DNA of 39,411 nucleotides from Terriglobia bacterium (GTDB lineage: Bacteria; Acidobacteriota; Terriglobia; Acidiferrales; UBA7541): NCBI GenBank assembly GCA_020073585.1, contig JAIQEV010000036.1:1-39411 (forward strand), in the 5' to 3' direction. The translations under genes were made by a program, and so were the position numbers. Below, in pieces: positions 21,230 through 25,856 of this stretch (the stretch's first letter is position 1; every line of letters starts with the position of its first letter). Under the pieces are notes generated by a model that saw nothing but the letters and a program-made list of their open reading frames with translations, was not told the DNA's origin and made no database searches.

Positions 21230-21832
21230 TTAGTCGGCATCCGGTACATCCGACAGGAGCTGTTTGATCGTTCGGTGGAACTTTTCAAATGAATCCGCAC
21301 GAAGTGCCAATTGCATATCGAACAGACTAGCCAGAGTTGGCTGGTCCAAACTTGCGGAGTAACCCCTATTACCTTGCATCCTCTCGGTTAGCCATTCCTT
21401 TGCGCCCCGAATGTCCTCTGGATTAACTGGTGCCTCCAGCCCGGTTGGCAAACCAATTTGATCAGCGAGCGATTCTGCCGCTGCGATAAACCACGCCTCG
21501 AATTCACGCTTGGCTATAATCACGGCTATAGGCAAATCGTTCCGGGCATTTGCTGCGCGCTTCAATAGTGCAGGGCCGATCTGCGCCGGGCAATCATCGT
21601 CACCGTCGAGGACGACGATAATCCCACCCCGACCAGAGATTTTGCGAGCGGCAAACTCCACGGCTCTCTCTAATTCTCCCGGTTTTATCAACTTGCTTCT
21701 TGGAGTTCGGATCGCAGTAACAACGTCCACAATCACGGGCGGCACAATCTGGCCTGCTATGCGCCGGACGACGATGGGCACCGCTTCGGCGTCTCCATGT
21801 CCTTCAACTACGCATGCAATCCGTCTAGCCAT
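21230..21832 (-). CDS. DUF4276-like protein with Toprim-type acidic motif
   Basis: A 200-residue protein. The N-terminal CVVEGHGDAEAVPIVVRRI gives E10, and IIVVLDGDDDCP gives D76 and D78. A Glu followed by a DxD pair after a hydrophobic strand is the pattern of Toprim nuclease domains, and the sequence resembles DUF4276. FEAWFIAAAESLA and the GAKEWLTERM region are also family-like. Its ATG shares one base with the ATPase stop (TAATG), so translation is coupled. Toprim plus ABC-type ATPase gene pairs are known from OLD-like, PARIS and Rlo-type phage defence, so it is probably the effector. Third codon positions are AT-richer than in the flanks, suggesting transfer. Nuclease activity is inferred. 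Confidence 0.75.
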   Translation of the reverse strand: MARRIACVVEGHGDAEAVPIVVRRIAGQIVPPVIVDVVTAIRTPRSKLIKPGELERAVEFAARKISGRGGIIVVLDGDDDCPAQIGPALLKRAANARNDLPIAVIIAKREFEAWFIAAAESLADQIGLPTGLEAPVNPEDIRGAKEWLTERMQGNRGYSASLDQPTLASLFDMQLALRADSFEKFHRTIKQLLSDVPDAD

Positions 21833-23064
21833 TAGCTATCCCGGCCCTCGAATAGCTTCGTTTGGCTTTCAGGAGACTTACCCACTTTAGGTTTCTCCGG
21901 AATAAGCTGATTGAGGCGAAGTAGTTCGCCCGCGGTGTAAAGCCTATCTCGCAATGCGGACCTACCCGTATTATCAAGCGGCCCGATCTCAGTGACTCCG
22001 CCTATTGAAATCACCGCGAGGATCGAATCCGTATCAAGATCTTCATCGTCCAGGAGGTCAGGGCTGTGACTTGTCACCACAACTTGAGTCTTTCGACTCG
22101 CATCCCGCAGACTGTCGAGCAAGACTCCGGCGGCCGCGGGATGTAGTGCCACCTCAGGCTCCTCGATTCCTACCAGGCGCACCTTTCGCTTCCCGCCGTT
22201 GCTTGCCTGAAACAAGGCCACAAGGATTCCTAACGATCGGAGAGTCCCGTCGGACATATTTGCAGCCAAAAATCGCCATGGATCTGGTGAACCTGCGACC
22301 TGTTGCCGAAACTCCAAAGTCACGCGGGGTCCGACAACTTTCTCATCGACGCCGTACACGCCGGGCACAACCTTCCCGAGGTACTCCTCGATTCGGCGTT
22401 TCGCTTCTCCGTCATGCAGTGCCAATTGACCAAGTACGCTGGCGATATTGCTGCCCTCCCTTTCGAGGAGGTCGCCCGCATCTGGAGGCTGCAGGTCTCG
22501 AATTCGAGCTGGATTTAGACTGTAGAATCCCATCCGCGAGAACGCATCATAAAGGTGGACAAATTCCGGAAGTCCCGACGCGTTCACAAGATAGAGTCTG
22601 TCAGACGCTGCAGCGGGTACAACAGAAACACTCGACGTTACCCGTCCGTTCCGAACTGTAAAAGATGCAGTGCGAGATGGCCCCTCGATACTGCCGACAG
22701 TGTGGATTTCACAATTTTCCTCTTGGACTTCGTAGCCGCCGCCGGTACGTGAGCCAATCCTGAAGCCGTAATGCCCTTCGACGCCCTCATCTAACTGAAA
22801 CTCCAATCGGAGAGAAAAATGAGTTGGATGCCCCCCTGACCGGCGACGAACCTCTTTGATGCCGCCTCTTTCTCTCAGAGCGTGGTCCAAGGACGTTCGC
22901 AGGGAGTCGGTAACAAATCGCAAGGCATCGAGAAAGTTGCTCTTGCCAGCCCCGTTCGGTCCCACCAAAAAAGTCAGGGGTCGCAGGGATACTTCGCAGT
23001 CAGCGATGCTCTTGTAATTCTTTAAGATGACTTTCTTCAGAAAGCTGGATGAAGGAGGCTTCAT
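21832..23064 (-). CDS. AAA/ABC-type ATPase (RecF/OLD-like) of a two-gene defence-like module
   Basis: A 410-residue ATPase. Walker A is GPNGAGKS (35-42), preceded by LKNYKSIADCEVSLRPLTFLV, typical of AAA_21/RecF-like proteins. The signature region is NMSDGTLRSLGILVAL. Walker B is RLVGIEEPEVALHP. VVVTSHSPDLLDD supplies the switch His. The insert between Walker A and the signature lacks a long coiled coil. AGGAG four bases before the ATG at 23064 decides this start over a TTG at 23076. It is coupled to the Toprim-like gene. Related ATPases sense invasion and hold or activate a toxic partner; that role here is inference. A hairpin element similar to one beside the R-M operon lies upstream at 23173-23227. 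Confidence 0.85.
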   Translation of the reverse strand: MKPPSSSFLKKVILKNYKSIADCEVSLRPLTFLVGPNGAGKSNFLDALRFVTDSLRTSLDHALRERGGIKEVRRRSGGHPTHFSLRLEFQLDEGVEGHYGFRIGSRTGGGYEVQEENCEIHTVGSIEGPSRTASFTVRNGRVTSSVSVVPAAASDRLYLVNASGLPEFVHLYDAFSRMGFYSLNPARIRDLQPPDAGDLLEREGSNIASVLGQLALHDGEAKRRIEEYLGKVVPGVYGVDEKVVGPRVTLEFRQQVAGSPDPWRFLAANMSDGTLRSLGILVALFQASNGGKRKVRLVGIEEPEVALHPAAAGVLLDSLRDASRKTQVVVTSHSPDLLDDEDLDTDSILAVISIGGVTEIGPLDNTGRSALRDRLYTAGELLRLNQLIPEKPKVGKSPESQTKLFEGRDS

Positions 23065-23172
23065 TCGACTCCTCAAACTCTCGCTAGTGTAGCAGGCCTG
23101 GCGGGTGGCACACTCTCAAAATGAGTAGCGAAATAGAGTAGTCCTCACACTGTCAACGAAGAGAGCTGGATC

Positions 23173-23227
23173 CTAACTGAGCGGGCAAGATCGGGGTGGC
23201 ATTCGATGCGAGCGAAGGCCACCCCCA
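23173..23227. repeat. Hairpin element, copy 2 (upstream of the ATPase)
   Basis: The shared core GGGCAAGATCGG-GGTGGC, a TTCG/CGAA inner stem and GGCCACCC form a hairpin related to 15106-15160. It lies 109 bases before the ATPase start. Confidence 0.6.
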
Positions 23228-23277
23228 GTCATAACTCTTGACCCTGAGCCATTCACGCTTCCTCTGCTGCGCTGCGT

Positions 23278-23306
23278 TCGACAAGAACTATCCGAGTTGA
23301 TACAAA
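23278..23306 (+). promoter_or_regulatory. Candidate extended -10 promoter before the truncated exporter copy
   Basis: TCGACA, a 17-base spacer ending TGA, and TACAAA. The TGATACAAATT core is repeated upstream of the intact exporter at 24488-24498. Confidence 0.35.
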
Positions 23307-23361
23307 TTTCGCCGGGATATTCAGCGCCCGAGAGCTTGCCGCGCGAAAAGAGAGGGAGAAC

Positions 23362-23449
23362 ATGGCTCGAATCCGGATAGCGGCGCGATGATCGATCTCG
23401 CCACAGGGATTTTCTCTTCTTTGCCGGGATGCCGGCGGCGCGTTCAACG
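23362..23449 (+). pseudogene. Truncated copy of the TauE/SafE gene start with its leader ORF
   Basis: Upstream sequence (TGATACAAATT at 23298), a 9-codon ORF MARIRIAAR (23362-23391) and the first codons MIDLATGIF of an exporter match the intact locus at 24488-24650. After two single-base deletions the frame is lost, and similarity ends near 23449. The ATGA overlap between the leader ORF and exporter start is kept. The spacer 23065-23361 holds the hairpin element and no other gene. Confidence 0.65.
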
Positions 23450-23833
23450 GCGCATCGCGGCCGAAGCCGCTCGTTTTGTTCCCTGCGGGGATGGCCGCTT
23501 TTTCGTGCGCAAGGCGGCGCGAGTGGAGCGGACCTGGAAGCGCACGCCTTCCGCGTGCTGCAAATAGGCGACGATCTGAAACAGATTGCGGTCGGTCGGA
23601 TTCCCATTGAGGCCAAACATCTGGTGAAGAGTCTTTACGTGGAGCCTGGTGTGCGCGGCCAGCTTGGGAAAACCGAGAGTGGCATTGATGTAGCCACGCA
23701 ACAGCTCATTGCCGAGCGGCACATCGCCAGAGAGAAGGATTTCGACAGTCTCGCTCAGAAGGGCCTTGCGAAAGGCGGGGTCGCGCTTCGCGCGTGCTTG
23801 AATGGTTTCCCTGAAATCTCGTGTCAATGCCAT
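23444..23833 (-). CDS. HTH antidote-like transcriptional regulator (addiction-module type)
   Basis: A 129-residue protein resembling small HTH proteins annotated as probable addiction module antidotes. ALTRDFRETIQARAKRDPAFRKALLSETVEILLSGD is a helical N-terminus; GNELLRGYINATLGFPKLAAHTRLHVKTLHQMFGLNGNPTDRNLFQIVAYLQ is the DNA-binding part. AGGA about seven bases upstream supports the ATG at 23833. The basic tail (TKKRPSPQGTKRAASAAMRR) is extra, and its last codons and stop lie inside the truncated exporter copy, so the 3' end was probably reset by that rearrangement. No toxin gene is adjacent, so it may be an orphan. Confidence 0.75.
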   Translation of the reverse strand: MALTRDFRETIQARAKRDPAFRKALLSETVEILLSGDVPLGNELLRGYINATLGFPKLAAHTRLHVKTLHQMFGLNGNPTDRNLFQIVAYLQHAEGVRFQVRSTRAALRTKKRPSPQGTKRAASAAMRR

Positions 23834-24058
23834 CTTCTATTCCTCATTTCTTTTCTGCTGCTTCTCAAAGATACCGAAGATCCGGCCCGCGACAGAGCAT
23901 TAGAATCGGCACTCCTGCACTTGCGAGTTCTGCGTGACTTCTTTTTGCACCGGAAGGCGAAATACGTTTGCTTGGTTTGCAGCTACGGGGACAATAGTTC
24001 GTTTTCGTGAAATGAACTCGTAAATATCCATAAGAGCGCATCTCGTAAATACAAAAAC

Positions 24059-24312
24059 CAAAGAGAGATTCCTCGCTTCGCTCGGAATGACGGTATTTGG
24101 TTAGTCGTCCGGGCGTTTATGAGAAAGCTTGAAATGGCGGTATTTGGTTAGTCGTCCTGGCGTTTATGAGAAAGCTTGAAATGACGGTATTTGGTTAGTC
24201 GTCCTGGCGTTTATGAGAAAGCTTCAAAGAGAGATTCCTCGCTTCGCTCGGAATGACGGTATTTGGTTAGTCGTCCGGGCGTTTATGAGAAAGCTTGAAA
24301 TGGCGCTCATCG
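24059..24312. repeat. Tandem array of 47-bp units with a 28-bp spacer unit
   Basis: 47-bp units start at 24087, 24134, 24181 (shortened to 44) and 24253, with a partial fifth at 24300. Each begins ATGRCGGTATTTGG and ends GAGAAAGCTT. A 28-bp block (CAAAGAGAGATTCC...CTCGGA) precedes the first unit at 24059 and the fourth at 24225, giving a 166-bp higher-order repeat. The rest of the 23834-24553 spacer shows no gene apart from the palindromes at 24424. Confidence 0.85.
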
Positions 24313-24423
24313 AAAAGTGCGACTGCCGAAGGCATGTGAGGGGGTGCGCTCAGGGGTGCACTCAGGGGTGGGCGGGGGCGTCCAGGATTTCGCGAACCTT
24401 TGTTAGCAGGACGTCGCGGGGCA

Positions 24424-24467
24424 TGACCGCTGCGCGGTCAGGCATGCGGTTGACCGCTGCGCGGCCG
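24424..24467. repeat. Two 17-bp palindromes spaced 27 bp
   Basis: TGACCGC-TGC-GCGGTCA at 24424-24440 and TGACCGC-TGC-GCGGCCG at 24451-24467. The period equals that of the array at 609. Confidence 0.75.
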
Positions 24468-24553
24468 CGCGTGCAGAGGTTCGGATGTGATACAAATTCC
24501 GGCTGGTGCGAGCCAAGCACCGGATGTTTGCCGCCAGAGAGCGGAAGGAGTCT

Positions 24554-24583
24554 ATGCCTCGAACCCGGGTACAAACACGATGA
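24554..24583 (+). CDS. 9-codon leader ORF coupled to the exporter gene
   Basis: ATG at 24554 has a strong GGAAGGAG site four bases upstream and encodes MPRTRVQTR, ending in TGA that overlaps the exporter ATG (ATGA). The exporter itself has no good ribosome site, so its translation probably depends on this mini-ORF. The diverged copy at 23362 keeps length, Arg positions and overlap. Confidence 0.5.
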   Translation: MPRTRVQTR

Positions 24584-25350
24584 TCGATCTCTCCACGGGA
24601 ATTTTTCTCTTTTTTGCCGGGATGCTCGGCGGCGCGCTCAACGCGGTCGCCGGCGGGGGCAGCTTCGTGGCCTTTCCCGCGCTGCTCTTCACGGGAGTTC
24701 CGCCGATACCGGCGAATGCCACCAATACCGTCTCGCTGTGGGTGGGCGTGGGAGCCAGCGCGCGGGCCTACCGCCGGCACCTGAACATTTCGCGGCGGGT
24801 GCTGGCGCCGCTGCTGGCGGTGAGCGTCATCGGCGGGCTGACGGGGGCGCTGGTGCTGATCAAGACGCCGGCGCACACCTTTCTGCGCACGCTGCCCTGG
24901 CTGATGCTGGGAGCGACGTGCTTGTTCACCTTCGGCAAGCACCTGACGCGCATGCTGGCGGTGGAGGTTGCGCAGGAGCCCAGCAGCGCCGCCATCGCCG
25001 GAGCCTGCCTCTTCGAGCTGTTCGTGGCCGTTTACGGCGGGTACTTCGGCGGGGGAATGGGCATCATGACCCTGGCCATGCTGGCGACGCTGGGGATGAG
25101 CGACATCAACGCCATGAATGCGCTGAAGGTTACGCTGGGCGGAGCCATCAACGGGGTGGCCACCGTCACCTTCATCGCCACGCGCATCATCTACTGGCCG
25201 CAGGGCGTGATCATGACCGCGGGAGCGATCTTCGGCGGATACATGAGCGCGCACTACGCGCAGCAGCTGCCGCAGGCGTGGATCCGCGCCTTCGTGATCC
25301 TCACCGGGCTGGCCATGAGCATCTACTTCTTCCTGAAAGCCTACGCGTAG
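24580..25350 (+). CDS. TauE/SafE family membrane permease (TSUP)
   Basis: A 256-residue inner-membrane protein with about seven to eight helices. The N-terminal repeat has GMLGGALNAVAGGGSFVAFPALLFTGVPPIPANATNTVSLW, and the C-terminal repeat has GYFGGGMGIMTLAMLATLGMSDINAMNALKVTLGGAING. These paired Gly-rich motifs define the TauE/SafE family, which moves sulfite, sulfoacetate or other anions. The ATG at 24580 overlaps the stop of the leader ORF. A truncated copy lies at 23388. The hairpin at 25356-25388 follows. The substrate is unknown. Confidence 0.88.
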   Translation: MIDLSTGIFLFFAGMLGGALNAVAGGGSFVAFPALLFTGVPPIPANATNTVSLWVGVGASARAYRRHLNISRRVLAPLLAVSVIGGLTGALVLIKTPAHTFLRTLPWLMLGATCLFTFGKHLTRMLAVEVAQEPSSAAIAGACLFELFVAVYGGYFGGGMGIMTLAMLATLGMSDINAMNALKVTLGGAINGVATVTFIATRIIYWPQGVIMTAGAIFGGYMSAHYAQQLPQAWIRAFVILTGLAMSIYFFLKAYA

Positions 25351-25394: not shown

Positions 25395-25856
25395 TCATTT
25401 CACCTGCAGTGTTTCGATGTATTCCGTCAGATTACGGATGCGCAGTTGAACCATGGCCGCATTCGTCCCGTGCACAGGAGACGTCGCCAAGAGCCGCCCC
25501 CAGATGGGCATCTCCAGCGTGCCATGGGCCGGAGCGGGCTTTTCTGTCCCGAAGCGCAAGACCGCGGCAACGCGCTCGGCGGGGTATTTGCCCTCATGGT
25601 CCCTGGTCAGCATGGTCAAGTCCGGAGGCGGCGCCTTCAATTCGGAAGCGGCCGGACCGTCGCCTTTGCCTTGCTTGCCGTGGCAGACGGCGCAATATTC
25701 CTTGTACATTTCCTCACCGGAATCCGCCGCAGTGGGTTTGATGGGGACTTTCTTGATGATCTTCTGTGGCGGGGTCTCGGTGGACGGCTGTTGGGACCAA
25801 GCCGCAAGAGCCAGAACCGTAAAGATAAGCAATCCCAGGAATCCGATGCGTCTCAT
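25395..25856 (-). CDS. Exported class I cytochrome c
   Basis: A 153-residue secreted monoheme cytochrome. The signal sequence (residues 1-21, LLIFTVLALAAWS) is followed by the heme motif C55-A-V-C58-H59 and a probable axial M116 in EMPIWG. A GKGDGP loop after the heme is typical. The KKVPIKPT linker after the signal may act as a flexible tether. GAGGAGG six bases before the ATG at 25856 is a strong ribosome site. It probably carries electrons in the periplasm; no oxidase or dehydrogenase partner lies next to it. Confidence 0.9.
   Translation of the reverse strand: MRRIGFLGLLIFTVLALAAWSQQPSTETPPQKIIKKVPIKPTAADSGEEMYKEYCAVCHGKQGKGDGPAASELKAPPPDLTMLTRDHEGKYPAERVAAVLRFGTEKPAPAHGTLEMPIWGRLLATSPVHGTNAAMVQLRIRNLTEYIETLQVK

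Follow-up and report, generated by a model that had tools for sequence, protein, structure and literature searches.

Short upstream ORFs (uORFs) that deliver ribosomes have been described (PMC12548453, PMC4633059). In the RTGA-coupled small ORFs of mycobacteria, the TGA of the short ORF overlaps the next start, an arrangement suggested to boost initiation at the second gene (Shell et al. 2015, PMC4633059). Leaderless genes form a second point of reference, as they have a −10 element beside the start codon and no Shine–Dalgarno sequence (SD) (Zheng et al. 2011, PMC3160421; for Deinococcus-Thermus, PMC12340547); for the Acidobacteria, an average of 13.3% leaderless genes was predicted from three genomes (PMC3160421). 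In M. smegmatis, TTG is reported to be ineffective as a leaderless start (PMC4633059), and in E. coli to be far less efficient, the loss being smaller in natural mRNAs than in artificial ones (PMC9031893).

The window, by which we mean the whole 39,411-nt stretch of DNA that was analysed, carries a TauE/SafE family gene preceded by a nine-codon mini-ORF. Our preferred reading, to which we assign a probability of roughly 0.6, is that the mini-ORF is a ribosome-loading uORF for a TauE start that has no SD and that it replaces a leaderless-type arrangement. Coupling through a ribosome-loading mini-ORF is already known; what stands out more is that this gene appears to have used a leaderless-type TTG start earlier. 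A literature search on TauE sulfite exporters and leader peptides returned nothing relevant, and no title among the matches listed dealt with a leaderless-to-mini-ORF switch.

Results

Anatomy of the mini-ORF and the TauE gene

The peptide MPRTRVQTR, its nine codons and its ATGA overlap with the exporter gene, first described in a sequence-only reading of this DNA, were recovered at the same coordinates (Table 1), the TGA of the mini-ORF overlapping the TauE ATG at 24580. The TauE protein scores 128.9 bits against PF01925, above the Pfam gathering cut-off of 32.6, which places it in this family, and all NCBIfam models fall below their own cut-offs. It had also been proposed that the only good ribosome site in this region belongs to the mini-ORF, and this is the case: an AAGGAG precedes the mini-ORF, and no SD of at least 4 nt at a spacing of 4–10 nt was found before the TauE ATG in the window. 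The next likely gene 3′ of TauE (25395–25856, by our reading) is encoded on the other strand. TauE thus appears to be monocistronic, with the mini-ORF as the presumed first ORF of its transcript.

Table 1. Positions in the window of the mini-ORF, its signals, the TauE gene and the diverged copy
Feature	Position	Strand	Details
Mini-ORF, MPRTRVQTR*	24554–24583	+	ATG at 24554, nine sense codons, TGA at 24581–24583
SD of the mini-ORF, AAGGAG	24545–24550	+	Spacing of 3 nt to its ATG (short)
TauE/SafE family gene	24580–25350	+	256 aa; PF01925, E = 3.2e-37
Distal promoter-like site, with TGATACAAAT	24467–24497	+	TG at 24488–24489, −10 hexamer TACAAA at 24491–24496; no clear −35
Remnant of start-proximal −10 box, GGGTACAAA	24567–24575	+	Within the mini-ORF, in the register of leaderless-type relatives; 3.9 bits
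Diverged copy	23272–23449	+	Promoter-like site, SD GGGAG, MARIRIAAR* at 23362–23391, truncated and frameshifted TauE 5′ end

A mini-ORF in each member of a three-species clade

In a midpoint-rooted tree of 65 TauE proteins, the window protein (genome G000, the window species) forms one clade with those of genomes G009 (94% amino acid identity) and G008 (75%), with support of 100/99; the forks around the clade have support of 96/87 and 81/83. All three members carry an SD-led mini-ORF that ends in ATGA on TauE, of 9 codons in G000 and G009 and 12 codons in G008, with the peptides MPRTRVQTR, MARMRIAAR and MEMTIPARVPSR, respectively, the last translated by eye from a TTG that lies 6 nt behind its SD. 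Both hallmarks of a coupled uORF are present: the stop overlaps the downstream start (ATGA in G000, G009, G008 and the diverged window copy), and the short ORF has a ribosome signal of its own (AAGGAG, AAGGAG and AGGAG in G000, G009 and G008) with none before TauE. A search of the G008 genome with the DNA of either window leader gave no match, and window-like leader DNA occurs in only 2 of 36 genomes of the genus, G000 and G009.

Among the 103 upstream regions that do not belong to the clade, a uORF turned up in 8 when the scan was relaxed to at most 45 codons and an SD of at least 4 nt, and one of at most 15 codons in 3 (L057, L032 and L069), all three of which overlap a start-proximal promoter box of the kind described below; L069, one of these and a leaderless-type relative, has a nine-codon ATG mini-ORF with AAGG overlapping its promoter. 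The alignment of homologous upstream regions that the sequence-only reading had called for thus upholds its "conserved" leader ORF for the three-species clade and not beyond it, nor for the sequence of the peptide. The supply of ribosomes by coupling, one of its two suggestions for the leader, is favored by an SD-less TauE start on which an SD-led mini-ORF ends in 3 of 3 clade members, G008 included.

The frequency at which such a mini-ORF would arise by chance was estimated by holding the TauE start fixed and shuffling the dinucleotides of the 90 nt upstream in 20,000 trials, with mini-ORFs of 5–15 codons counted. With a 5-nt SD, 1.0% (window), 1.2% (G009) and 1.2% (G008) of the shuffles gave a mini-ORF, and with a 4-nt SD 3.3%, 4.4% and 4.9%. 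In a sample of 192 called genes, from 280 kb of G009 (without the TauE locus) and the window, uORFs of at most 20 codons ending in NTGA numbered 5 under a strict SD definition, one of them the present mini-ORF, against 0.99 expected, and 7 against 4.35 under a loose one; the gene calls behind these counts, like those behind the codon usage and candidate-start scans below, come from a simple script. It is rather improbable that the mini-ORF is a product of chance and that TauE is initiated alone, be it on a leadered mRNA without an SD or at an in-frame GTG (24487). That GTG exists, and SD-less TauE starts are the rule in the set examined, yet the GTG overlies the distal −10 box, and although shuffles yield a mini-ORF in 1–5% of cases, 3 of 3 clade members carry one. 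An N-terminal extension of TauE from the GTG was rejected, as neither G009 nor G008 offers an in-frame equivalent. Conservation of the mini-ORF is limited to a three-species clade and hence represents few independent events, and the shuffle probabilities of 1–5% are modest.

Leaderless-type TTG starts in the TauE relatives

Relatives of TauE were collected from 101 genomes, 62 of which had a match at E = 1e-20, in 66 places; 51 of these places were taken, 50 with a usable match, and the other 15 include mostly the most distant ones. Of 36 genomes of the genus, 26 had a match at 1e-70, and a contig search gave 66 loci. The resulting upstream set held 119 loci, of which 118 matched (L132 did not) and one, L046, was dropped for its short upstream region, and comprised 106 distinct upstreams, which are distinct sequences rather than independent species; the identities of L114–L133 derive from short stretches.

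The motif TG[AG]TANA is found at −11 to −14 from the codon-1 position in 49 of the 106 upstreams, against a background of 0.0013 per 12-nt window, and in 47 of the 62 at ≥55% identity. A TTG or GTG follows 14–17 nt after the box in 48 of the 49; the start is TTG in 47 and GTG in 1, and in the remaining upstream neither codon 1 nor codon 2 is a start. The TTG stands in a TTGA context in 41 of 47 cases, and an SD precedes it in none of the 47, SD absence being the rule for TauE starts in the upstream set. When the 49 sequences are aligned on the box, a weak TTG[GA]-like element appears about 21 nt upstream of it, where a −35 would be. Differences between aligned sequences are flat over the three codon positions ahead of the TTG (0.54, 0.54 and 0.56 for codons −4 to 1) and coding-like behind it (0.25, 0.21 and 0.57 for codons 3–14), and in 19 of 47 relatives the TTG is the sole possible start between the upstream stop and codon 10. 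By position, these TauE relatives have the layout of leaderless genes, with a −10 box placed for transcription to start at the start codon and no SD. If the extended −10 is taken as TG-n-TANANN, the predicted transcription start falls on the TTG or beside it, and we refer to this layout as leaderless-type. It is kept in TauE orthologues of several Acidobacteriota lineages (for example L012, L016 and L052). In the TauE tree, leaderless-type members lie on both sides of the mini-ORF clade, and the near neighbors L028 and L031 have neither box nor mini-ORF.

Leaderless starts are not a genome-wide habit: an extended −10 lies 13–18 nt before the start in 1 of 757 candidates from the G009 stretches and the window. 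In 400 kb of G022, a leaderless-type relative with 279 called genes in this stretch, an extended −10 at 13–17 nt occurs in only 5 of 1251 candidate starts, TauE included, which is no more than at neighboring distances and makes the TauE layout exceptional in this genome. We also rejected a mini-ORF beginning with GTG (GTG ATA CAC ... TGA) in the leaderless-type relatives; its frame is not kept from one relative to another, and its GTG overlies the −10 box.

Promoter-like sites upstream of TauE in the clade

A promoter matrix built from the family was applied to the 250 nt upstream of the window TauE, where its top match, at 10.9 bits, is the distal site at −92. The top matches in G009 and G008 are at −90 (3.3 bits) and −69 (4.5 bits), respectively; G009 has a second match of 3.0 bits at −136, the diverged window copy scores −0.2 bits, and TG[AG]TANA is absent from the G008 distal site. 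Leave-one-out scores of the relatives range from 6.5 to 29.1 bits (median 20.2, 48 sites), and only the window distal site falls within this range, with those of G009, G008 and the diverged copy below it. TG[AG]TANA beyond −60 is present in G000 and G009 and in 2 of 104 other upstreams (L122 at −98 and L071 at −79).

The DNA itself shows the proximal box in many relatives and that this box is degraded or missing in the clade, as it shows the anatomy of the locus and the mini-ORFs of all three clade members. In the register of the leaderless-type relatives, the matrix scores are 3.9 bits for the window, −11.7 for G009 and −20.2 for G008. The window box is partly degraded, having lost the T of the extended −10 TG, and its decay is incomplete: GGTACA in this register scores above 99.9% of the background, which lies under 1.2 bits. 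This box, inside the mini-ORF (GGGTACAAACACG-ATG), may still be working, in which case TauE would be expressed from a leaderless mRNA with its ATG near +1, leaving the mini-ORF untranscribed or as a minor second route. The leaderless-type layout is, moreover, the commonest among the relatives examined (49 of 106). We nevertheless consider a working proximal promoter unlikely, if the least unlikely of the alternatives, as it would have to act without that T beside a distal site of 10.9 bits, would rely on a register that is degraded in G009 and G008, and would leave the SD and the ATGA as coincidences.

Drift of the leader peptide

Between the window and G009, the mini-ORF differs by five nonsynonymous and no synonymous codons out of eight (8 of 24 internal positions), whereas TauE differs at 49 of 768 positions (93.6% nucleotide identity), with 29 synonymous and 16 nonsynonymous codons. 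The peptide therefore drifts, and the ATG, length, frame, SD and overlap stay. What the window mini-ORF, its diverged copy and the G009 mini-ORF share are R3, R5 and R9, encoded by CGA, CGG and CGA; when the G008 peptide is aligned from its end, only R-V and the final R are common to it and the others. Neither a kept peptide nor a run of critical codons, as would be expected of a regulatory leader peptide, is seen, and only scattered arginines are retained.

The second earlier suggestion, that ribosomes stall or slow at rare arginine codons of the leader and thereby control TauE, draws on these constant codons and on the scarcity of CGA, which accounts for 278 of 6363 arginine codons (4.4%) in the called genes. 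The final arginine codon must end in A, as the ATGA overlap requires it, and the codons of Arg5 and residue 6 (CGG-GTA for Arg-Val, CGG-ATA for Arg-Ile) are in register with the TGGTA or TGATA of the relatives' −10 box. The use of CGA in the mini-ORF looks like unselected sequence, though its decoding may be slow. Single-sequence folds of the leaders are no better than those of shuffled sequences (z = 0.65 and 0.79 for the window, −0.01 for G008 and 1.34 for the diverged copy), and no Rfam family matches window positions 23000–25000. Taken with the codon differences and the near-complete change of the peptide in G008, these results make arginine-dependent stalling very improbable.

The diverged copy and the neighborhood

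The sequence-only reading had further pointed to a diverged, truncated copy at 23362 that encodes a nine-codon peptide with the same overlap. We find this copy (W1) as described, with MARIRIAAR* and ATGA on a truncated, frameshifted TauE, of which the first codons remain with one-base gaps. The leader of W1 is 91% identical to that of G009, and the intact window leader (W2) is 78% identical to W1 over the matched stretch, although the TauE behind W2 has 93.6% nucleotide identity to that of G009; the copies would fit an older duplication followed by loss and exchange. As support for the mini-ORF, W1 is weak evidence of selection, because of the pseudogene behind it and its closeness to the leader of G009; the G008 mini-ORF carries more weight. 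G009 also has a stray leader remnant without TauE (L111, C3:255203–255321), 81% identical to W1, in which the start of the mini-ORF is lost.

Adjoining the TauE copies in the window (21230–23076, minus strand) are genes for an AAA ATPase (PADLOC HEC-01A, 545 bits) and a DUF4276 protein (HEC-01B, 230 bits), a candidate anti-phage defense pair; in G009, a gene that by eye is LysR-regulator-like lies upstream of the TauE leader instead. Between the truncated and intact TauE copies are a 129-aa ORF (23444–23833, minus strand), small and antitoxin- or HTH-like by eye, with no Pfam or PADLOC match, and a repeat region (24059–24474) of four overlapping 81-nt direct repeats, two identical and two at 72–74%, with spacings of 47, 47 and 72, and then two 24-nt TGACCGCTGCGCG repeats. 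The sequence around the 24-nt repeats has five short matches elsewhere in the genome.

Discussion

In the ribosome-loading reading, transcription from a promoter some 90 nt before TauE would place about 50 nt of leader ahead of the mini-ORF, the start of transcription being predicted from the distal site. A ribosome would bind the AAGGAG, translate nine codons and terminate on the TGA inside the ATGA, and would then reinitiate on the overlapping TauE AUG, which is without an SD. The peptide is probably disposable, and position, SD, frame and overlap would be what matters. In the earlier state, an extended −10 would have stood directly before a TTG, usually as TTGA, so that the TGA of the overlap already existed and initiation could do without an SD. 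Because the ancestral TTGA pre-forms the TGA, any upstream frame ending there would have been coupled at once. On this reading, the leaderless-type layout would have come first and the mini-ORF-led one later. More tentative, and in our view slightly short of an even chance, is the full proposal that one orthologous gene switched its mode of initiation within the genus, from a leaderless-type UUG to an SD-led mini-ORF lying over the old −10 box, with its TGA pre-formed by the ancestral TTGA.

If true, this would be a before-and-after case of a ribosome-loading mini-ORF that arises as a gene once leaderless acquires a 5′ leader. It would offer a readable route to the origin of coupled uORFs. It would also present an unusually conserved leaderless-type TTG start in the Acidobacteriota that is directly testable. 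The case would show, too, that a seemingly conserved arginine pattern in a leader peptide can be left over from an earlier promoter box.

The TauE mini-ORF resembles the RTGA-coupled small ORFs of mycobacteria in its overlap. The mycobacterial small ORFs that were analysed for coupling, 23 of 220 of which were coupled, begin leaderless with RTG (PMC4633059), whereas the mini-ORF here is SD-led and it is the relatives of the downstream gene that look leaderless. With termination–reinitiation at gene pairs joined by ATGA (Huber et al. 2019, PMC6728339) and the uORFs reviewed in PMC12548453, the locus shares the ATGA overlap, a short ORF that would serve only to deliver the ribosome and, as proposed here, reinitiation at an SD-less start; unlike in those systems, the upstream member has 9–12 codons, encodes a drifting peptide and is not an annotated gene. 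As with the Cys-rich small ORF upstream of cysA2 in mycobacteria (PMC4633059), a short coding leader precedes the gene, but the peptide is kept there and not in the TauE mini-ORF. The boxed TauE upstreams, finally, share with the leaderless genes of PMC3160421 and PMC12340547 a −10 beside the start and the lack of an SD, and differ from them in starting with TTG.
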